Positions 1 to 47,661 of a stretch of 47,661 nucleotides of DNA are shown here, one piece after another. The notes under the pieces were generated by a model, which saw only the letters and a list, made by a program, of their open reading frames with translations, was not told the DNA's origin and did no database searches. The position numbers and the translations under genes were made by a program. Source of the DNA: a virus; the IMG/VR virus record IMGVR_UViG_3300031525_000014, positions 1 through 47,661 of that record; one strand, written 5' to 3'. Numbering within the stretch: position 1 is the first letter of the stretch; each line of letters opens with the position of its first letter.

Positions 1-1053
1 GAGCTGAACGTGATCAAGAAGCTCCCCAAGGAAGCCGGCGGGGTCCCGTGGATGTACGAGTCCTCGAAGTGTGCCCCGCAGGAAGCGCTCCGAAACCTTG
101 ATCGAGCCTTTGAGGGCTTCTTTCGTCGGTGTAAGAGCGGCTCGAAGCGGAAAGGCTTCCCTCGGTTCAAGTCTCGTAAGCGGGGCATCGGTAGCTTCAA
201 GTTCAGCGGAACGATTCATGTAGAAGAGCGACGGGTTCAGCTTCCCCGTCTCGGGAAGATCAAGCTCAAGCAACGCGGGTACCTCCCGACCTCGGGGGTG
301 AAGATCCTCTCAGCTTCGGTCTCGGAGCGAGCGGGGCGGTGGTTCGTTTCGATCCAGGTTGAACAGGGGCTACCGGATCCCGCACCCAAGCCCACGTCGG
401 TTCTCGGGATCGACGTTGGGATCAAGAATCTCGGGGTCACCAGCGAAGGCGAGGTCTTCTCCAACCCGAAGGCGCTCCTGGCAGCGCAGAAGCTTCTCCG
501 AGCGCGTCAGAAGTCTCTCGCGAGAAAGACCAAAGGATCGAACAACAGGAGGAAAACGGCCGCTAGGGTCGCCCGTCTACACGCTAGGATCTCCAATATC
601 CGGAGGGATTCGATCCACAAGATGACGACTGCGATCACCAAGCAGGCGTCGGTTCTCGTGATCGAGGATCTCAACGTCCTTGGGATGCTGAGAAACCACT
701 GTCTCGCCCGGTCTCTGTCGGATGCCTCCCTCGGGGAGATCCGCCGGCAGCTCACCTACAAGAGCAAGTGGCGCGGGGTCGAGCTTCGGGTAGCGGACCG
801 CTTCTATCCAAGCAGCAAGAGGTGCTCGGGGTGTGGAGCGGTCAAGGTCTCGCTCTCGTTGGCCGAGAGGGTCTACCGATGCGAGCTTTGTGGTCTCGTG
901 ATCGATCGAGACCTGAACGCTGCCCTCAACTTGAAAGATTTGGCCGGGAGTTCCCCGGTGCAAGCCTGTCGCCCTGGAGGCTCTGGTGCTGCTCTTACGA
1001 GCGGTACGAAACCTCTGGTTGGGCAGGAACCGAACCGGGAGGCTTCCTCGTGA
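1..1053 (+). CDS. tnpB: TnpB RNA-guided nuclease (5' end cut by window edge)
   Basis: IS200/IS605-family TnpB, an omega-RNA-guided DNA endonuclease. The frame is open from the first base, and family comparison suggests the first few dozen residues lie outside the window. The three RuvC acidic sites are present: Asp in GIDVG (about 405-420), Glu in VIEDLN (about 658-675) and Asp in DRDLNAALN (about 901-920). A zinc ribbon (CSGCG and CELCG) lies between the last two, so the enzyme looks intact. No TnpA is visible. The last 90-100 bases are nearly identical to the second copy at the far end, as expected where the gene overlaps its omega-RNA. Confidence 0.93.
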   Translation, partial: ELNVIKKLPKEAGGVPWMYESSKCAPQEALRNLDRAFEGFFRRCKSGSKRKGFPRFKSRKRGIGSFKFSGTIHVEERRVQLPRLGKIKLKQRGYLPTSGVKILSASVSERAGRWFVSIQVEQGLPDPAPKPTSVLGIDVGIKNLGVTSEGEVFSNPKALLAAQKLLRARQKSLARKTKGSNNRRKTAARVARLHARISNIRRDSIHKMTTAITKQASVLVIEDLNVLGMLRNHCLARSLSDASLGEIRRQLTYKSKWRGVELRVADRFYPSSKRCSGCGAVKVSLSLAERVYRCELCGLVIDRDLNAALNLKDLAGSSPVQACRPGGSGAALTSGTKPLVGQEPNREASS

Positions 1054-1074
1054 AGCAAACCGGCCCGGAGAACG
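965..1074 (+). ncRNA. omega-RNA 3' scaffold / transposon right end, copy A
   Basis: This segment overlaps the tnpB stop and ends in GGAGAACG. It contains a small hairpin GCTC-TTAC-GAGC (991-1002), a conserved core (1003-1040) and a second hairpin GCTTC-CTCGT-GAAGC (1042-1056). The same core recurs at 36733-36824 and 46758-46860. The guide would begin at about 1075 and run into the downstream gene. The structure is seen; the omega-RNA role is inferred from known TnpB biology. Confidence 0.7.
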
Positions 1075-1577
1075 TATTCGGTCCGTTCTTTCAAGTCGTC
1101 GACTGCGCGGCCGATGCCCCGCCGGCCGCGGCGGTCTCGCCCATCGACTTCCTCAACGCCCAGCTCACCCAAGTGACGCAGGAGCTCGACGAGGCGCTGG
1201 AGAAGCTCGAACGGATGCCGTGCGGTCACGCGCGGTTCGAGCAGCACCGAGAGATGCACGCGAGCGCTACGCCGTACTGCACGGTCTGCCGGATCAACCA
1301 CGACTACCGGGTACTCGAAGAAGAGGAAGCGCGTCTCGACCTAGCGCTCGAGAAGACCCAACAGGAACTCGATCGTGTCCGCACCGCGCTGCAAGAGGCC
1401 TCCGTGGTTGCGACGAAGGCCACCGATAGGCTTCTGGATTCCCTGCCCGGTCGGGTCCTTCGCCCGTTGCGCGAGGCGGTCGATGCGCTGCGCAAGTCCG
1501 GCGACATCGAGGGCGTGATGAACGCTCAGCGCGACATCATCGATGCAGCGCTTGTGCTGTTCCCAGAAGCAACCTAG
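1050..1577 (+). CDS. Coiled-coil protein with Cys/His cluster, 5' end at tnpB right end
   Basis: Function unknown. The frame runs from a GTG at 1050 inside the transposon right end. Two Glu-rich heptad stretches (about 1170-1220 and 1310-1420) flank a possible zinc site with CGH, H and CTVC elements (about 1215-1300). The apparent start lies in the omega-RNA segment, so the original N-terminus may have been replaced when the element inserted. A shorter in-frame start (GTG in QVTQEL, about 1171) is possible. It converges with the next minus-strand gene, and the two stop codons overlap. Confidence 0.6.
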   Translation: MKQTGPENVFGPFFQVVDCAADAPPAAAVSPIDFLNAQLTQVTQELDEALEKLERMPCGHARFEQHREMHASATPYCTVCRINHDYRVLEEEEARLDLALEKTQQELDRVRTALQEASVVATKATDRLLDSLPGRVLRPLREAVDALRKSGDIEGVMNAQRDIIDAALVLFPEAT

Positions 1578-19236: not shown

Positions 19237-19604
19237 TCCGCCACCGTCTGGTCTGCGAGCGTCGGGTAGACCTCGACGCTGTAGCCCGCGACGCCGCGCG
19301 AGGAAGTCGGGAACGTCTCGACCAAACCTCCCGGGTACGTCACGAGCCACACGGCGTCATAGACCCCGGGGTACTGTGTATCCGCCGCCTCGAACGAGAC
19401 CGTGACCTGGTTGCCGTTGGTGCTGAACGGGCTGTTCGCGAGCGCGACCGCGGCGGGCGTAACCGAGTGCCGGGTCTGCCGATGCACCATGTTGAAGACG
19501 CACGTCGTGCCGCCCGGGATGATGACGTCGCTGCCGTCCTGGTTCTTCAACAGCACGACGAGGGGACGACCCGTGTCGCCGGAGCGGATGGTGAACTCAG
19601 CCAT
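19233..19604 (-). CDS. Baseplate/tail BppU-N-like protein
   Basis: A 123-residue protein resembling the N-terminal domain of phage baseplate upper proteins: FTIRSGDTGRPLVVLLKNQDG, TTCVFNMVHRQT, and a C-terminal PGVYDAVWLVTYPGGLVETFPTS. These domains attach receptor-binding proteins to the baseplate. It is encoded just after the Gly/Ala/Ser-rich tail protein. The ATG lies 6 bases after TAGCGT. Confidence 0.68.
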   Translation of the reverse strand: MAEFTIRSGDTGRPLVVLLKNQDGSDVIIPGGTTCVFNMVHRQTRHSVTPAAVALANSPFSTNGNQVTVSFEAADTQYPGVYDAVWLVTYPGGLVETFPTSSRGVAGYSVEVYPTLADQTVAD

Positions 19605-19610
19605 CCACCC

Positions 19611-19616
19611 ACGCTA
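19611..19616 (-). promoter_or_regulatory. -10-like TAGCGT before 19604 start
   Basis: TANNNT hexamer 6 bases before the ATG. Confidence 0.45.
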
Positions 19617-19618
19617 GC

Positions 19619-20842
19619 TCAGCTAGACCGCCGCCACACGCGTCGAGCGGTACCGCCGAGCGTCTTCACCTGGCGCGCGGGCTCGTTCGAGGACCAGACC
19701 CGCTTCGCCGCGCCGCCGAACGTCTTCACCCGACGCTCGGGCGGGCTGCTGGACCACACGTGCCGAGCGGCACCGCCGAGCGTCTCGACGGCGCGGACCG
19801 GGATCGGGACCGGCGGCGAGTACGGGATGTCGCCCGAGAGGTTCGCAACCGCGGCCGCTACGCCGGAGAGGTACCCCGCGCCCGCGAGCGCGGCGGAGAC
19901 CTCTGCGTCGGCATACGCCAGCCCAGAGAGCGCCCCCGCGCCCGCGACGCTCGCGTTCGTCGACGTACCCAGCGACACGGCGCCCGAGACCTGACGGATC
20001 ACGGTGGGAAGAGCCGTTTGGTTCGCGACCAGAGAAGCCGTGCCCGCTATAGCGGCGATCCCAACGATGCTGGCGGCCGAACCAGCCGCCAGCGTGGCCG
20101 CGCCCGACACGGCCGGCGTGATGGCCGACACCGCGGACAACGTTGCGGTCCCCGTGACGCTCGGCACCGCTGTCGTGCTCGTCGTCAACGCCACGGTCCC
20201 GGCGACGAGGGCGGACCCGGCCAACGAGCCCGCGACGGCGCCCGTAACGCCCGCGGACCCCGTGAGACCATCGGACGCGGACCCGGTCGCGGTCGCGCTC
20301 GCGCCCAAGGACGCAGCCCCGAAGATCCCCAGGGTCGCCAAAGACGTCGCTGAACTTGGCGCCGTTCCCGAGACCGCGCCGGCCCCGCGTGCGGTAGCCG
20401 ACGCAGACGACGTCGTCGCGATCGAGCCCGCGAGTGCGCCGCTTCCACCCAGCGTCCCAGAAGACGAGCAGGACTCCGCCGCGGTACCCGACAAAGAGCC
20501 AACGCCGCCCAGGACCGCTACAACCGACGTCGCAACCGACGCAGCACCCCCAAGCGCCCCCGCGCCGCGTGTCACGCCGGTAACGAACGCAGAGGCCGCA
20601 GCGGCCCCCGACACCGTCGAGGTCGCGGTGCTCGCCGCAGCCGCGGACGCAGCGCCCCCTAGTCCACCAACGCCAAACAGCGCCCCCGCGCTCACGGTCG
20701 CGGCTACGACGGTGCCCGTGAGCGTGACGGAGTCGAACGCGGTGGTCTTGTCGAACCAACTCGACTCCGCGGTTGCGGCCGTCGGGTCGAACCACCCGGC
20801 GCCGGTCTGGGTCTGGCCGAACCACCCGGCGCCCGCAGTCAT
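19619..20842 (-). CDS. Gly/Ala/Ser/Thr-rich repetitive tail protein
   Basis: A 407-residue low-complexity protein. The N-terminus has two WF repeats (GAGWFGQ, GAGWFDP), then about 300 residues of irregular GAGALSGTA-type beta repeats. The C-terminus has three copies of a unit of form VETLGGAARHVWSS. It is probably a fibrous or surface tail component (inference). A shorter relative with a damaged 3' end lies at 23140-23391. Confidence 0.65.
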   Translation of the reverse strand: MTAGAGWFGQTQTGAGWFDPTAATAESSWFDKTTAFDSVTLTGTVVAATVSAGALFGVGGLGGAASAAAASTATSTVSGAAAASAFVTGVTRGAGALGGAASVATSVVAVLGGVGSLSGTAAESCSSSGTLGGSGALAGSIATTSSASATARGAGAVSGTAPSSATSLATLGIFGAASLGASATATGSASDGLTGSAGVTGAVAGSLAGSALVAGTVALTTSTTAVPSVTGTATLSAVSAITPAVSGAATLAAGSAASIVGIAAIAGTASLVANQTALPTVIRQVSGAVSLGTSTNASVAGAGALSGLAYADAEVSAALAGAGYLSGVAAAVANLSGDIPYSPPVPIPVRAVETLGGAARHVWSSSPPERRVKTFGGAAKRVWSSNEPARQVKTLGGTARRVWRRSS

Positions 20843-23139: not shown

Positions 23140-23391
23140 TCAACGCGGCGGACTTGGATCGGAAGCGGCGGATATCGCCCGAAAGAGACGCGCCGCCGCG
23201 ACGCCCGAAAGGTACCCGGCCCCCGAAAGCAGCGCGTAGGCCTGCGCCGAGGCTTCGACGGCCCCGGACAGGGTAAGGGTCGCGGCCGTGATAAGCGCGT
23301 CGAAGGCCGTGCTCATCACCGTCACGGTCGGCGTACCGACCGTGACGATCTGGAGCAGTTCGTTCGTCGCGTTGAGGGTCAGGTTCGCCAA
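23140..23391 (-). CDS. Short paralogue of the repetitive tail protein, frameshifted 3' end
   Basis: An 83-residue protein. Its LSGAGYLSGVAAA matches the 19619-20842 protein. After that point the frame diverges into ARLFRAISAAS, while other frames of the same DNA read LSGDI and then PLPIQVRRVDTLSGPF, which align to the paralogue. At least two small indels have shortened the product. The N-terminal part (LTLNATNELLQIVTVGTP) may still be used. It is a partial duplicate in the tail cluster. Confidence 0.55.
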   Translation of the reverse strand: MANLTLNATNELLQIVTVGTPTVTVMSTAFDALITAATLTLSGAVEASAQAYALLSGAGYLSGVAAARLFRAISAASDPSPPR

Positions 23392-32848: not shown

Positions 32849-33680
32849 GGAGCCTCCGCAGGACCTCGGCGGCGGCCCACCAAGCAAGCACACCGCCCAC
32901 GCGGCCCCCGCCGGTCGCGACCACGATACCGGGCGACGCCTCTCGCACGGTGGGCTCGGGCAGGACAGGGCGCATCCCCCAGATTGAACCACGATCCTCA
33001 AGCGTGCCCACAGCTTCTTGGAGCGGACCCAACGCCCGCACGCGCATTTTCTCTGTGTAGTCGTGCGCGCGCGATGGATCGCGCTCCAAAGTCTCGCCAA
33101 GCCGCACGACACCCAACCCCCACGAACGCGCCGCGTAGGCAAAGTACGACGTCACCGGGACCAGCATCGTCCGTGCGGGCGTTCGCTCCGCCTTGAACAA
33201 GAGACCGCGCCCGCCGAGCGCCTCGACGCCCACGAGGGCAAGCCCGCTTGCGTTCAGAATCTGGTCCGTCCAGACGCCCGCGGCGAGCACAACAAGCCCG
33301 CCCTCGACAACGTCGCCCCCCTGGAGGTGTACGCGGCCGCGCTCGACGCGCGTGACCTTCCCCGCAGCCCGCTCTGCGTAGAGCGCCAAAACGTCCTCGG
33401 GCCAGAACGTCGCCCAGTCCAACCGTGCCTTGCGTCCGACGACATCGGCACCGTCGAAGTCAAAAACAGCCCCGTGTTGCCGTCCGAGCGACTCGGCTGC
33501 GCGCGCTCGCTCGGCCCAAAGGCCCTTGTACCAAGAGCGCGCGTAATAGCCGCTCGCCGCTCGTGAGGCCGCGCTGGGCTCCGCCGAGTCGATCAAGGTA
33601 ACAGACGCGCCTGCGTCGGCCGCGACCCGCGCGATAGCGGTCCCCCAGAAGCCGCCGCCCACCACGACGAGGTCCTTCAA
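32841..33680 (-). CDS. FAD-dependent DAO-family oxidoreductase of the DNA hypermodification operon
   Basis: A 279-residue protein with an N-terminal Rossmann FAD site (LVVVGGGFWGTAIARVAADAG, then the ribose-binding acid in TLIDSAE). It has the DAO-family middle GLVVLAAGVWTD and a C-terminal FAD contact GIVVATGGGRVGGV. In phage thymidine-hypermodification loci a flavin-dependent lyase or oxidase acts on the amino-acid-modified base. Its neighbour at 33677 is a candidate amino-acid:DNA transferase. The start is TTG 33680, overlapping the upstream stop (TTGA). General amino-acid oxidase activity remains possible. Confidence 0.8.
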   Translation of the reverse strand: MKDLVVVGGGFWGTAIARVAADAGASVTLIDSAEPSAASRAASGYYARSWYKGLWAERARAAESLGRQHGAVFDFDGADVVGRKARLDWATFWPEDVLALYAERAAGKVTRVERGRVHLQGGDVVEGGLVVLAAGVWTDQILNASGLALVGVEALGGRGLLFKAERTPARTMLVPVTSYFAYAARSWGLGVVRLGETLERDPSRAHDYTEKMRVRALGPLQEAVGTLEDRGSIWGMRPVLPEPTVREASPGIVVATGGGRVGGVLAWWAAAEVLRRLRG

Positions 33681-34570
33681 AGCCCCACCAGCCTTCCGGT
33701 GTCCCGATAGACCGACTTCAGCACGGGCCGGACGCCAGACCAGCCCATCGCCTCGCCGCGGTAACGGGCGGGGAACGAAGCGGCGCGCGCAGCCCACCAT
33801 ACGGGGCCCAGGTTGTCGCGTACCAGCGTCTCTTGCTGTTCGTCGATGTCCTTGCCCAGGTAGTAATTCCCGCGGCACAGGCTGTTGTAATCGCACAACG
33901 CGGTCTCAAGCTGATCGAGCGCGTTGAGCCCCGCGCCGCCGTCTTGGGCGCGCTTGAGCAAGTCGTGCTGGCGCTGCGGGTCGCAGCACTCCTGCCAGGT
34001 CATGCCCGTGAGCCGCACCATCCCGGGGATCGGCCCCGCGGTCTCGCCCAACTTTGAGCCGATGTCGGGCGCCGTGATGGGCAGCCCGTGAACCGACTTC
34101 AACAAGTCGGCCCACTTGTAGCTCGCCCAAGGTCCCGCGTTCGGTACCGCCTCCAGCGCCGTCCGGACCTTCACCCAGCCCTCTTCCGGCGAGCCGCCCC
34201 GGGCGAGACCCGAGACCCAACCGTCGAGCGTCGCGGTGCCCACGGCTTCGAGTACCCCGTTGAGGAACGCCGCGGCTTTGGCTCGGCCAGCGTCGCCCCG
34301 GACGCCTCGACGCTCGATGCCGGTGGGCAACACCGGAAGCCGCGCAGGATCTATGGGCTCCGGAACGGGGTACACGAGCCCGACTTTTGCGGCGCTTCCG
34401 AGCGAGTACCAGGCCAAGTACAGGAGCGTCCGCCAAAGGCGGTCGGACTCCGGAAGATGCTGGTAGACGCGCGCCAACACGGGGTACGTCGGGTCCAGGT
34501 CACCCGACTCGACCTGCCCGCGGGAGAACCGGCAAAAGTCTCGGAACGAGTCGCGCCCGTGCAGCGTCAT
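33677..34570 (-). CDS. Amino-acid:DNA transferase-like (aGPT-PPlase clade)
   Basis: A 297-residue protein resembling alpha-glutamyl/putrescinyl-thymine pyrophosphorylase-type transferases. Residues 45-70 are aromatic-rich (LYLAWYSLGSAAK). There is an ERRGVRG segment at 86-92, a glycosylase-like helix-turn-helix NAGPWASYKWADLL at 144-157, and LCDYNSLCRGNYYLGKDID at 225-243, which I associate with this clade. Family members attach an amino acid to phosphorylated or pyrophosphorylated hydroxymethyl bases in DNA. ATG 34570 overlaps the acetyltransferase stop. Confidence depends on recalled motifs plus neighbours. Confidence 0.72.
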   Translation of the reverse strand: MTLHGRDSFRDFCRFSRGQVESGDLDPTYPVLARVYQHLPESDRLWRTLLYLAWYSLGSAAKVGLVYPVPEPIDPARLPVLPTGIERRGVRGDAGRAKAAAFLNGVLEAVGTATLDGWVSGLARGGSPEEGWVKVRTALEAVPNAGPWASYKWADLLKSVHGLPITAPDIGSKLGETAGPIPGMVRLTGMTWQECCDPQRQHDLLKRAQDGGAGLNALDQLETALCDYNSLCRGNYYLGKDIDEQQETLVRDNLGPVWWAARAASFPARYRGEAMGWSGVRPVLKSVYRDTGRLVGL

Positions 34571-35007
34571 GGGAACAGGTAGCAGCACAGGGCTCGGCGC
34601 TGATCGCTCTTGGCTCGCGCGCGCCCCATCAAGACGCCCCCGAGGCTGACGTAGAACGCGTTGCTCGCTAGGTTGGTGGCGTCGGTCTTGAGTTCAAGAG
34701 GTCGAGGCATAGAACCCACCAAGGCACGCGCGAACCCTTGACGCCGCGCCGCGGGCAGGACTCCAATCTCGCCCAGGACCGCGACGCCGTCGCGCGCCCG
34801 GACTCTGTAATGGGCGAACGCCGCACCCTCGACACCCACCCAGTGCTCGCGTGCGACCTTGTGGGGCGTCGACGTGCGCGCTTTCTGATAAACGTACCAG
34901 GCGCGCGCCCCCACGACGAACCAGGACCCGATGTCCGCCTCGACCGAGGTCCAGACACGCTTGAGCCACTCGGTGTCGGTGGGCTCGAGCCCACGAACAA
35001 CCGTCAC
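34567..35007 (-). CDS. GNAT acetyltransferase of the hypermodification operon
   Basis: A 146-residue GNAT. The acetyl-CoA motif A reads LGEIGVLPAARRQGFARALV and motif B reads TNLASNAFYVSLGGVLMGRA, the canonical order. In known phage loci an acetyltransferase can acetylate the amine left on the modified base; the flanking transferase and TET-like genes suggest that role here. GTG 35007 overlaps the upstream stop, and the end overlaps the next ATG. Another substrate is possible. Confidence 0.82.
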   Translation of the reverse strand: MTVVRGLEPTDTEWLKRVWTSVEADIGSWFVVGARAWYVYQKARTSTPHKVAREHWVGVEGAAFAHYRVRARDGVAVLGEIGVLPAARRQGFARALVGSMPRPLELKTDATNLASNAFYVSLGGVLMGRARAKSDQRRALCCYLFP

Positions 35008-35957
35008 GCGTCAGACTCCTCTGGCTCAACAACCTGGGGCTCGTCCTCCTCGTCCTCTTCGAGCGGCCCGCCGAGGGCCCCACGGAGGTTCTTCGCGCGC
35101 TCCCGCTCCTCCGCAGGGCTCAGGCAATCGAGCATGCCAGTGCGGAAGTAGAAAACTACCGAAATCCGCTCGTGGCCCCCGTGGTCTGGGTCGCCCGCGG
35201 GGCCGACGGCGCCGTGTATGGGCGTGTTGCCGTGGACCTCGTGCGGGTCGAACGCGATGACGTCACGGTCCTGGAGATCCACCGCGACGCCGAAGCGCGG
35301 GAATACCAATTCGCCCCCGCGATAGCTACCCTGACGCAAGACGCTGATGATGCCGAACCCCTCGGGTAGGTCGCCTGCGTCGCGATGGCAACCGCCAGCG
35401 AAGGTGTTGTTGACCGTGAGGGTCGTGAAGGGCGTGCCGGGGACCACGTACGCCGGGTGCGTCTTGGCGGCCGCCACCATTTGAGCCGCGTACCGGTCCG
35501 GCGCGACCGACTCGAACACCCGCGCGACCTGCTGGACGTATGGAAAGCACGCGGCCCACTCTTCCGGCCGCTCCATCGAGGCCGCGCAGGCCCGACAGTA
35601 CGGGATGCGCGCGTAGCGGTCCGACGAGCCTACGACGGCCGACGCTACAGGTTGACCACCAATGTTCGTGCGAGAAAGCTGGCCCGACGCCAAGACACGC
35701 TTGTTGCGACCAGAGGCGCCGAAGTGCCCACGGTTGTTGGTCTTGCGGTTGCGAAGCCAGTGAAGGAACGGGTAAGCGGCGTCCGCGGCCTCGCGGTTCA
35801 CGGCGGCGCGCCGGAGCGTCAACAGGCGCTCGCCTGACGGCTTGTAGACCGTGCAGTCGCCCTCGGCCTTCAGGACGATGTCCTGGGGCAGCATCCGGCG
35901 CCCCAGCATGGCCTCAACCTCTGCTGCGGGCCGCTGCCCTCTGAGCTGTACGATCAC
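35004..35957 (-). CDS. TET/JBP-family 2-oxoglutarate DNA dioxygenase
   Basis: A 317-residue dioxygenase of the TET/JBP type. The core reads FTTLTVNNTFAGGCHRDAGD, then GGELVFPRFGVAVDLQDRD, then VIAFDPHEVHGNTP, closely following the JBP/TET pattern. The Fe(II) ligands His191, Asp193 and His242 and the 2-oxoglutarate-binding Arg264 are all in place. Relatives hydroxylate methyl groups on thymine or 5-methylcytosine in DNA. An acidic tail follows. GTG 35957 overlaps the ParB-like stop. The substrate base is not determined by sequence. Confidence 0.88.
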   Translation of the reverse strand: MIVQLRGQRPAAEVEAMLGRRMLPQDIVLKAEGDCTVYKPSGERLLTLRRAAVNREAADAAYPFLHWLRNRKTNNRGHFGASGRNKRVLASGQLSRTNIGGQPVASAVVGSSDRYARIPYCRACAASMERPEEWAACFPYVQQVARVFESVAPDRYAAQMVAAAKTHPAYVVPGTPFTTLTVNNTFAGGCHRDAGDLPEGFGIISVLRQGSYRGGELVFPRFGVAVDLQDRDVIAFDPHEVHGNTPIHGAVGPAGDPDHGGHERISVVFYFRTGMLDCLSPAEERERAKNLRGALGGPLEEDEEDEPQVVEPEESDA

Positions 35958-36697
35958 GCTTCCCCGGGGAGCCCCGCGACAGCCTGCGCAACCGCGGCCA
36001 ACACGGCCTCCGTGACGTTCGGCGTACCCCAGGCGGCGTTGAGCCGCTGGCATTCCGCCAAGAACTTCGGCTGCGTCGTCGAATCCAGGTAGAGCTGCAC
36101 CATGCGAGTCTGCGCCACCCCCGCGTCAGGCGTGTCGCTACCCTGGTGGAGGTTCTGCCTCGGCTCGTCTTGCTCGCCCAGCGCAGGGTTTTCACCGTCA
36201 CCGACGGTCGACACCTCCATGGGCGCGACCGCCAGCATCTTCATCAGCTCCTCCTCACCGAAGCCGAGGTCGATCGCGCTCAGGGCCTCGCCCCCTTGGT
36301 CAAGGCCGCGCAGCAAGTCCTCCAGCTTCGTCGGGTCCCACTGGCCACGCTTCTGGTTCATCTTGACCGTGAGCTTCTTGGCCTCGGCCTCGGTCAAGCC
36401 GTTCAGGAAGACCATCGGACCGGACTTCAGCCCCAACTCGGTCGCGGCAGCCCAACGGTGCTCCCCGTCTACAATCAGGTCACGCTTCGCCCCGGTCTCG
36501 TCCGTCCCCCAGACAAGCAGCGCCTGGGACGCGAGCCAGCCGTCCTCGAGCAGGCCGTGCTTCAGGCTCTCGGCCTGGGCGGGCGTCATGACGTTCGGAT
36601 TGTACCCGTTGGGCTTGACGCTCTTGAGGGGTCGCATCACGACCTCGCCCACGACCCGGGCCTTCTTCTCCACCGCGGGCTCTTGCTCGACGCTCAT
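35954..36697 (-). CDS. ParB-like protein heading the hypermodification operon
   Basis: A 247-residue protein with an N-terminal ParB/sulfiredoxin-type domain: PLKSVKPNGYNPNVMTPAQAESLKHGLLEDGW, LLVWG and LIVDGEHRWAAATELG with the GEHR motif. The rest is helical (FGEEELMKML, AECQRLNAAWG). ParB-like proteins accompany several phage base-modification systems, as nuclease or DNA-binding partners. ATG 36697 is downstream of a promoter that overlaps the solo omega-RNA-like element. It is not a partition protein with visible partners here. Confidence 0.8.
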   Translation of the reverse strand: MSVEQEPAVEKKARVVGEVVMRPLKSVKPNGYNPNVMTPAQAESLKHGLLEDGWLASQALLVWGTDETGAKRDLIVDGEHRWAAATELGLKSGPMVFLNGLTEAEAKKLTVKMNQKRGQWDPTKLEDLLRGLDQGGEALSAIDLGFGEEELMKMLAVAPMEVSTVGDGENPALGEQDEPRQNLHQGSDTPDAGVAQTRMVQLYLDSTTQPKFLAECQRLNAAWGTPNVTEAVLAAVAQAVAGLPGEA

Positions 36698-36703
36698 GCC
36701 CGC

Positions 36704-36732
36704 ACTGTCTCAGAGACGTCTCAAACTTGCAA
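36704..36732 (-). promoter_or_regulatory. Promoter of the hypermodification operon with a palindromic spacer
   Basis: -35 TTGCAA (36727-36732), a 17-base spacer and -10-like GACAGT (36704-36709), then 6 bases to the ATG. The spacer contains the palindrome GAGACGTCTC (36713-36722), a possible operator. The -35 overlaps the expected first guide bases of the solo omega-RNA-like element. Confidence 0.5.
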
Positions 36733-36824
36733 CGTTCTCCGGGGGGTTCAGCAAGCTGATACCCGGTTCGGTTCCTGCCCAACCAGAGGTTTCGTACCAC
36801 GCTTACGCGCAGCACCAGAGCCGC
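36733..36824 (-). ncRNA. Solo omega-RNA-like element, no tnpB
   Basis: About 92 bases share the tnpB right-end core with copies A and B but lack a TnpB coding frame. Hairpin 1 (GCGC-GTAA-GCGT, 36799-36810) and hairpin 2 (TCAG-CTTG-CTGA, 36748-36759) use sequences different from those in copies A and B while keeping the fold, as expected for a structured RNA. The 3' end is GGAGAACG. The predicted guide would cover the promoter at 36704-36732. Confidence 0.62.
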
Positions 36825-36994
36825 CCCGGTACCGCCGCCCTGGCTTCCGCCTCTGTATTGAATACCCAGGCGAACTCAACCAACGGCGTGAACGAACGCG
36901 CGGCCGTGAGATCGCTGTTGCGTAGGTAGTAGTAGTACCCTGGCTTCTGTTCCGGACGACCTAGTTCACCCGCTCTGTATCGGACGACCCACAC
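36803..36994 (-). CDS. Small 63-residue protein ending inside the omega-RNA-like element
   Basis: From GTG 36994, right after the lipoprotein stop. The product WVVRYRAGELGRPEQKPGYY, then FAWVFNTEAEARAA, is a beta-alpha pattern seen in small phage proteins of unknown role. The last seven residues (RLWCCA and stop) are encoded by the omega-RNA-like element, so the gene's original C-terminus may have been replaced. Confidence 0.55.
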   Translation of the reverse strand: MWVVRYRAGELGRPEQKPGYYYYLRNSDLTAARSFTPLVEFAWVFNTEAEARAAVPGRLWCCA

Positions 36995-37002
36995 GGGGGC
37001 GG

Positions 37003-37758
37003 CTACTTGGAGCAGAGCGCGGGCGAGAACAACTTCCCCGGCCACTGCACGGCGAAGCCCGCTCGGGCGTCTCGGACACGCGCCTCGGCCGCGACGATGT
37101 CGTCGCCCGCTTCCTTGACCTCGTAGAGGTTGACGACGCCGAAGCGCGCGCCGTTCGCCCGGATGTGCGCGAGCCGGGCCTGCTGATACCGGAGGTTCGC
37201 GAGGGCGTCGCAAGTCGCACGCGCGTCGTTCGCGATATGCTCGGCCGTCCTTCGGACCATGCAAGCCCGGTCGGGTCGGCACGCCCGCTCCTCCACCAGG
37301 AGCTTCTCGTAAGCGTTGAGCGCCATCGAGAGCTTCACGTCGTCCGGCGGGGCCTCGTCGCACGTGTCCTTGAACGCGCTCCTCGCCAGGGTGAACCGCT
37401 CACGCGCGTCCGCTAGATCCCGCTCGCGCGACTCGATGTCGCCGAAGAACGGGTCGATGCGCGTGACGATCTCGACCGACGCCAGCTTGGCCTCAAGCGC
37501 CTTTCGGGCCTTCAGGCACTGCATCGCCTGCTGCCCGTCCGCCACGCCCTTGGCCGCCATCGCGAGGGCCTGCTGGTTGCGCGCGGCCTGTTCGTCACGC
37601 ATCCGCTGGAAGTTGGCCTCCCGGGCCTGCGCCCGGGCCTCGGGACTCGGGCCGGTTGTGTGCGGTGCGGGGTTGCGCTGCCCAACCGTGATACCGCCGA
37701 AGTCGCAACCTGCGCACGCGAGCAAAACGAAGAAGAGACCTAGCTGTAGCGGTTTCAT
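37003..37758 (-). CDS. Lipoprotein with coiled-coil body
   Basis: A 251-residue lipoprotein. The signal is LQLGLFFVLLACAGC with Cys at the lipobox, then a Pro-rich spacer and a long helical region with many Arg, Glu and Ala and several Cys (paired Cys near 80, 132, 159). A membrane-anchored protein is predicted; the function is unknown. ATG overlaps the preceding stop (TGATG). Coupled to the gene upstream. Confidence 0.7.
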   Translation of the reverse strand: MKPLQLGLFFVLLACAGCDFGGITVGQRNPAPHTTGPSPEARAQAREANFQRMRDEQAARNQQALAMAAKGVADGQQAMQCLKARKALEAKLASVEIVTRIDPFFGDIESRERDLADARERFTLARSAFKDTCDEAPPDDVKLSMALNAYEKLLVEERACRPDRACMVRRTAEHIANDARATCDALANLRYQQARLAHIRANGARFGVVNLYEVKEAGDDIVAAEARVRDARAGFAVQWPGKLFSPALCSK

Positions 37759-46746: not shown

Positions 46747-46758
46747 GCTACCCCTTAC
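46747..46758 (-). promoter_or_regulatory. Truncated start-associated motif GTAAGGGGTAGC
   Basis: Only the TAAGGGG core remains; the 5' GGG seems replaced by the transposon end. The first base falls within the predicted guide of copy B. Confidence 0.45.
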
Positions 46759-46860
46759 GTTCTCCGGGGCCGGTTTGCTTCACGAGGAAGCCTCCCGGTT
46801 CGGTTCCTGCCCAACCAGAGGTTTCGTACCGCTCGTAAGAGCAGCACCAGAGCCTCCAGG
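46758..46860 (-). ncRNA. omega-RNA 3' scaffold / transposon right end, copy B
   Basis: Differs from copy A by one base over about 100 bases (an extra C before GGAGAACG). The guide would read into GTAAGGGG and the start of the 46343-46744 gene. Confidence 0.7.
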
Positions 46861-47661
46861 GCGACAGGCTTGCACCGGGGAACTCCCGGCCAAATCTTTC
46901 AAGTTGAGGGCAGCGTTCAGGTCTCGATCGATCACGAGACCACAACGCTCGCATCGGTAGACCCTCTCGCTCAACGAGAGCGAGGTCTTCACCGCCCCAC
47001 ACCCAGAACACCTCTTGCTGCTTGGGTAGAAGCGGTCCGCGGTCCTTAGCTCGACCCCACGCCACTGACTCTTGTAGGTGAGCTGTCGGTGGATCTCCCC
47101 GAGGGAGGCGTCCGACAGAGACCGGGCAAGACAGTGGTTTCTCAACATCCCGGCGACGTTGAGGTCTTCGATCACGATTACTGACGCCTGCTTGGTGATC
47201 GCAGTCGTCATCTTGTGGATCGAATCCCTCCGGATATTGGAGATCCTAGCGTGCAACCTCGCGACCTTCTGGGTCGCTTTCCTCCTGTTGTTGGACCCCT
47301 TCTGTTTCCTCGCGACCGCTTGTTGTCTCGCTCGGAGAAGCTTTTGAGCCGCCTGGAGAGCTTTTGGGTTGGCGAAGACCTCGCCTTCGCTGGTGACCGC
47401 CAAGCTCTTGATCCCAACGTCGACTCCGAGGATCGCCAGCTTCGGAGCGGGATCCGGTAGCTCTTGCTCCACCTGGATCGAGACGTACCAACGTCCCGCC
47501 TTCTCGGAGACCGAAGCTGAGAGGATCTTCACCCCCGAGGTCGGGAGGTACCCGCGTTGCTTGAGCTTGATCTTCCCTAGCCTTGGGAGCTGAACGAGAC
47601 GCTCCGAGACCTTGATCCCCTCGCTGAACTTGAAGCTACCGACGCCCCGCTTACGAGACTT
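46780..47661 (-). CDS. tnpB: TnpB RNA-guided nuclease (5' end cut by window edge)
   Basis: Second tnpB, inverted relative to the first and roughly 90 % alike in protein, with identical last about 60 residues. The RuvC acids (GVDVG, VIEDLN, DRDLN) and zinc ribbon (CSGCG, CERCG) are kept. About 60 more residues are missing at the N-terminus than in copy A because the window ends. The two copies share their 3' ends at DNA level, fitting selection on the overlapping omega-RNA. Confidence 0.92.
   Translation of the reverse strand, partial: KSRKRGVGSFKFSEGIKVSERLVQLPRLGKIKLKQRGYLPTSGVKILSASVSEKAGRWYVSIQVEQELPDPAPKLAILGVDVGIKSLAVTSEGEVFANPKALQAAQKLLRARQQAVARKQKGSNNRRKATQKVARLHARISNIRRDSIHKMTTAITKQASVIVIEDLNVAGMLRNHCLARSLSDASLGEIHRQLTYKSQWRGVELRTADRFYPSSKRCSGCGAVKTSLSLSERVYRCERCGLVIDRDLNAALNLKDLAGSSPVQACRPGGSGAALTSGTKPLVGQEPNREASS

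Follow-up and report, generated by a model that had tools for sequence, protein, structure and literature searches.

Among the tnpB right ends carried by the virus of IMG/VR record IMGVR_UViG_3300031525_000014 (47,661 nt; the whole stretch analyzed, hereafter the window, to which positions refer unless stated otherwise), one stands without a tnpB gene. This 94 nt element, which we name S, lies upstream of the phage DNA-modification genes and on the same strand. Is S a guide RNA that could be used in trans by the intact TnpB proteins of the phage, or is it what remains of a lost tnpB copy? The analyses described below indicate that S very probably derives from the 3′ end of a tnpB/omega-RNA copy that has otherwise disappeared, which would make it an ordinary relic rather than a functional guide.

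Table 1. Positions of S, its parts, its neighbors and related elements.
Feature	Position	Strand	Evidence or remark
Solo element S, 5′-truncated 3′ part of a tnpB omega-RNA (right end)	36732..36825	-	homology and covariance model
Variable hairpin P3a of S, 9 bp, GTAA loop	36794..36815	-	fold; re-paired relative to A, B and D
3′ hairpin of S, TCAG-CTTG-CTGA	36748..36759	-	version identical to that in copy D
Conserved scaffold end of S, CGGAGAACG, 3′ strand of pseudoknot	36733..36741	-	GUUC partner absent in S
Flank of S that would be guide, TTGCAAGTTTGAGACGTCTC...	36698..36732	-	reaches ATG of ParB-like gene
ParB-like (ParB_N) gene, downstream of S	35954..36697	-	Pfam PF02195, E 2.8e-5 (below curated cut-off); PHROG 620/498
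TET/JBP-family oxygenase gene, overlaps ParB-like gene	35004..36053	-	Pfam PF12851, E 5.8e-23
Probable amino acid:DNA transferase gene	33677..34588	-	Pfam PF18724, E 6.6e-7
Putative orphan 63-codon frame (MWVVRYRAGELG...)	36803..36994	-	stop TAA in P3a loop of S
tnpB copy A	10..1053	+	cut at contig start; full in G001, 112765-113988
tnpB copy B	46780..47661	-	cut at contig end; G001, about 159718-160940
tnpB copy C	G001, split over contig ends
Copy D (truncated tnpB)	G001, 85108-85296
Omega-RNA scaffold of A, complete	937..1075	+	107.2 bits
Omega-RNA scaffold of B, complete	46757..46896	-	108 bits
Omega-RNA scaffold of D, complete	G001, 85162-85296 (L105:1163-1297)	+	108.5 bits
Solo omega-RNA, Anaerolineales	L236:1501-1640		scaffold kept from stem 1 on
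Solo omega-RNAs, Thermoplasmata	L235, L242, L255:1501-1640/1643
GGGGTAAGGG sites	7180, 13735, 17378, 17857, 23270, 26568, 27196, 40560, 45560

A tnpB right end without tnpB

A 64 nt block of S (36762-36825) shares 91% identity with the right ends of both tnpB copy A and tnpB copy B (BLAST E-value 1.9e-20 each), and a 37 nt core is identical in the three elements, which may reflect recent truncation, gene conversion or selection. The frame of S still corresponds to a TnpB C-terminus (24 codons, amino acids 322-345, 75% identical). Only these C-terminal codons match, and the ~175 nt further upstream aligned to tnpB no better than shuffled sequences did. The in-frame homology runs into the right end and the 5′ part of the gene is gone, as in a truncated relic. 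The first-pass annotation was therefore right in recognizing on the minus strand a third tnpB right-end core that lacks a tnpB. The window gave no match to Rfam.

The ORFs at both ends of the window encode TnpB proteins with OrfB_IS605 and Cas12f1-like TNB domains (Pfam). Both A and B retain the RuvC D/E/D residues (GIDVG/GVDVG, VIEDLNV and DRDLNAA), and the same residues were found in an alignment of TnpB A to a solved TnpB-like nuclease. Judged by these residues, A and B would be cutters and not dead repressors.

Both the ParB-like protein encoded downstream of S and the core pattern led to a second record, IMGVR_UViG_3300037255_000025 (G001; 169,748 bp), which is 99.96% identical to the window over the 16 kb stretch around S that was compared. 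G001 contains five members of the family, namely tnpB copies A, B and C, the truncated copy D and the solo element S, and besides A, B and C it has three further, more distant tnpB genes. The five members form a graded series: A, B and C consist of a 407-codon tnpB plus scaffold, D keeps the last ~50 tnpB codons with a complete scaffold, and S, shorter again, has a partial scaffold. In copy D the same loss of tnpB seems to have proceeded less far.

Two Y1 transposase (TnpA) genes are present in G001 (19597-19959, minus strand; 35626-35988, plus strand). They are located beside two of the distant tnpB genes, and these pairs constitute complete-looking IS605-type elements within the phage. Copies A-C have no adjacent tnpA. 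The mutual homology of the phage tnpB copies begins no more than about 20 nt ahead of the start codon, without a typical left end; across the TnpB clade, too, homology among copies begins at or within ~20 nt of the start codon (L101:1266, L102:1939, L112:3001, L114:1382, L115-L127), and no left-end hairpin was found at the tnpB 5′ ends of this clade. Because homology starts at or near the start codon and there is no left end, a target-adjacent motif is not derivable from the 5′ flanks.

An omega-RNA model of the tnpB family

Sixteen related loci, not including S, were aligned at their tnpB 3′ ends, and a covariance model was derived from this alignment; its calibration was abbreviated, so that its bit scores hold but its E-values are rough. 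The consensus scaffold comprises stems 1 to 3 (CCGGG/CCCGG, as read in A; CCTGTC/GGCAGG; and CTGGAGG/CCTCTGG, respectively), a variable hairpin that we name P3a, a 3′ stem, and a GUUC/GAAC pseudoknot. Covariation was pronounced: 109 cells were changed on both sides versus 40 ± 5.5 in shuffles, and the observed score lay beyond that of every shuffle. The pseudoknot, in which GUUC of the stem 1 loop faces GAAC at the scaffold end, paired in 64 of 64 cells and in all 16 sequences, compared with 30-61% when the strands were slid. As its letters hardly vary, the pseudoknot rests on conservation and known structure. In A and B the tnpB ORF contains the 5′ half of the scaffold, which comprises stem 1 with the pseudoknot loop as well as the 5′ strand of stem 2.

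The model matched S with 36.3 bits (E-value 1.6e-7, rough for the reason given), but this is far below the 104-108 bits of the sister copies (C, 103.8 bits; A, B and D in Table 1). The description of S as an omega-RNA-like element thus holds for the 3′ half of the scaffold and not for a complete omega-RNA, the 5′ half being absent.

Applied to ten cellular genomes that encode related TnpBs, the covariance model detected many tnpB-linked scaffolds, plus complete solo ones. Four of the latter (L236, L235, L242 and L255) align with the model over its full length (34-82 bits) and have no tnpB in the 1.5 kb upstream of them, and the Thermoplasmata loci L235 and L242 resemble near-identical non-autonomous elements with differing guides. 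A complete solo guide RNA is thus possible in this TnpB family; in contrast to S, such an RNA has retained stems 1 and 2 and the pseudoknot. The genome of Ktedonospora formicarum (L145 / G020) has 108 omega-RNA matches of this family, many by broken tnpB genes, and forms a natural collection in which the frequency of solo guide RNA formation could be measured.

S lacks the 5′ half of the scaffold

The first letters of S fall within the 5′ strand of stem 3, so that nothing remains of stem 1, of the pseudoknot loop with its GUUC or of the 5′ strand of stem 2; stem 2 has broken pairs in the best covariance-model alignment, and about four of the seven pairs of stem 3 remain (counted by eye). A single AGTTC occurs upstream of S, but its closing stem has one of five pairs, and AGTTC was present in 17% of shuffles. 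A degenerate stem 1 proposed upstream of S by the model alignment was rejected, an equally loose helix being found in 15% of shuffles. When both were trimmed to the boundaries of S, S scored 17.1 + 8.3 bits versus 24.9 + 9.0 bits for A.

The hairpins that remain are paired. As noted in the first-pass annotation, both differ in sequence from those of A and B and still pair: the P3a strands GTGCTGCGC and GCGTGGTAC form nine out of nine pairs, and the 3′ hairpin is intact as well. The annotation had taken this re-pairing as selection for RNA structure, an interpretation that is undermined by copy C. The tnpB of C is 98.7% identical to that of B over 1 kb, yet its P3a consists of wholly different letters and is equally paired, so P3a changes fast in tnpB-linked copies. 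The tip of P3a in C (L113:856-995), CTCGTAAGAG, is the exact reverse complement of the tip in A, B and D, CTCTTACGAG, and the change possibly occurred by template switching within the hairpin (hairpin inversion). Because the intact copy C behaves alike, the re-paired hairpins of S are no sign of selection for a solo RNA, and no selection after tnpB loss is needed to account for them.

Guide region and downstream operon

The conserved part of S ends with ...CGGAGAACG at 36733, so that any guide starts at 36732, in agreement with the position given earlier. This putative guide (TTGCAAGTTTGAG...) is plain adjoining DNA. In the 170 kb G001 the 16 nt guide matched only its own locus at up to two mismatches, and one chance-like match appeared at three. 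An unrelated viral contig, L213, contains a 16-mer match, which was discarded as plausible by chance given the size of the collection. TnpB targets require a motif 5′ of the target. At the S guide's own locus the 5′ side is occupied by scaffold and not by a target-adjacent motif, and hence the guide should not target in cis.

A promoter had been proposed at TTGCAA/GACAGT; scanning for promoters and terminators around S gave nothing, with no sigma-70 promoter-like site in 36600-37100. The palindrome GAGACGTCTC has one exact copy (36713-36722) and, with one mismatch allowed, three sites versus 3.9 expected. The DNA-modification neighborhood assigned to this region was borne out by Pfam for the ParB-like, TET/JBP and probable amino acid:DNA transferase genes. 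The next possible start lies 35 nt from the scaffold end for S, 13 nt for B, 12 nt for C, 46 nt for D and 98 nt for A (the start being uncertain for A); a scaffold end near a gene start is common for this tnpB family in this phage.

Upstream, a putative 63-codon frame ends in S; no paralogues or homologues were found for it beyond this phage, and it may represent a gene that lost its own 3′ end to the relic. The string GGGGTAAGGG occurs nine times in the window with one mismatch allowed, versus 2.3 expected, and GTAAGGG-like strings occur near tnpB starts and directly after the scaffolds of B, C and D. GGGGTAAGGG/GTAAGGG is a possible ribosome-binding or promoter motif of the phage.

Origin of S and alternative explanations

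Truncation, an in-frame TnpB C-terminus and missing helices all fit the view that S is a relic, which the first-pass annotation had listed as one of two options. A former tnpB copy would have been located between an upstream gene and the ParB-like/TET operon, and a deletion would have removed tnpB together with the 5′ half of the scaffold to leave about 94 nt. The remnant consists of the variable hairpin, part of stem 3, the 3′ stem and the terminal GAACG, and would be transcribed passively, at most, as leader of the downstream operon. On the structural model such a remnant should not load TnpB, because it is unable to build stem 1, the pseudoknot and stem 2. We infer the deletion, as we do the lack of function, and do not see it directly, because the nearest ParB relatives are less than 40% identical and no empty or decayed site was found. 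Related phages with a decayed tnpB at the site of S were sought, and neither these nor relatives with an empty site or an intact tnpB turned up, there being no close relatives beyond the same population. Counted against a relic are the unchanged 37 nt core, the hairpins that are still paired, and the fact that S is known from one phage population, so that neutrality is not measurable.

An improbable alternative is that S is a cis-acting structured 5′ leader of the ParB-like operon, which would control, for example, mRNA stability or translation, independently of any guide function. S is indeed located close upstream of the start codon on the same strand, and a 96 nt piece containing it has a stable predicted fold (z -1.9; 9 of 200 shuffles were equally stable). 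This fold is, however, inherited from the parent omega-RNA, so that a new function is not needed to explain it, and it is conserved in no relative at this place. Moreover, P3a of S is predicted to be disrupted in longer transcripts: in those starting at 36930 or further upstream its probability was 0.07-0.14, as compared with 1.0 for P3a of A, C and D in predicted transcripts of at least 135 nt.

We consider it slightly less probable still that S functions as a guide RNA with which the intact TnpBs, in trans, would home on or cut genomes having a matching site that lacks S. Three tnpB genes of one family are present in the genome, S conserves the terminal GAACG and the 3′ half of the scaffold, complete solo omega-RNAs occur in other genomes of the TnpB family, and an inactive TldR locus has been proposed as a source of trans-acting gRNAs (PMC13418256). 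Against these points, S is missing stem 1, the partner strand of the pseudoknot and the 5′ strand of stem 2, none of which any of the 16 related omega-RNAs has lost; its score is low relative to the sister copies; and there is no promoter-like site around it. The idea retains a small chance, no empty-site relative having been found. A variant of it, in which S would be a minimized trans guide for the phage TnpBs despite the missing stems, or with a second RNA supplying them, and would act against rival phages with an S-less version of this operon leader, is very improbable.

Hardly credible is the proposal that S and TnpB repress the ParB-like/TET operon by a TldR-like, RNA-guided logic: S does lie upstream of that operon at the short distance given above, but B, C and D likewise end 12-46 nt from a gene start, the adjoining DNA is the guide's own template, flanked by scaffold and devoid of a target-adjacent motif, the RuvC residues are intact in A and B, unlike in TldRs, the guide has no distant target in the phage, and the scaffold of S is incomplete.

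Comparison with known systems

The relic interpretation of S implies that what passes convincingly for a solo guide RNA can be a remnant, as its conserved-looking part is the 3′ half of the scaffold only, and that apparent covariation also arises quickly among intact tnpB copies. Trans-acting guide RNA is a live question for copy D and for the complete solo omega-RNAs of Thermoplasmata and Anaerolineales. With its complete scaffold and ~50-codon tnpB, squeezed between two genes, D is a better candidate than S for a solo or trans guide RNA. The first 12 nt of the D guide (AAGGGTCGCGGC) match exactly positions 23275-23286 (plus strand), right after AGGGT; this match could be due to chance, helped by a recurrent GGGTAAGGG motif.

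Non-autonomous IS605-type elements (PATE/MITE-like) keep the right end without tnpB. S shares this feature, but it has no recognizable left end and its scaffold is incomplete; the Thermoplasmata loci L235 and L242 fit this kind much better.

TldRs are nuclease-dead TnpB repressors with a guide RNA, which are also found in prophages (PMC13418256). The phage resembles such systems in having a TnpB-family protein together with a guide RNA, and trans gRNAs have been suggested for them (PMC13418256). It differs from them in that A and B have kept the catalytic residues and that S is incomplete, with no distant target in the phage.

TnpB A matches the ISDra2-type TnpB (PDB 8h1j, 8bf8; PMC10097598) over residues 5-370 with 219 bits. 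In the ISDra2 complex, stem 1, the pseudoknot and stem 2 touch the WED/RuvC domains, and trimming of the RNA is tolerated only up to the start of stem 1 (PMC10097598). S is smaller than the shortest ISDra2 scaffold that still functions. S is unlike the ISDra2 omega-RNA in having the 3′ part only, without these three elements, whereas the scaffolds of A to D follow the same plan as that RNA: the loop of stem 1 pairs with the 3′ end, and stem 2, a stem 3 with variable tip, the 3′ stem and a 3′ guide are all present.
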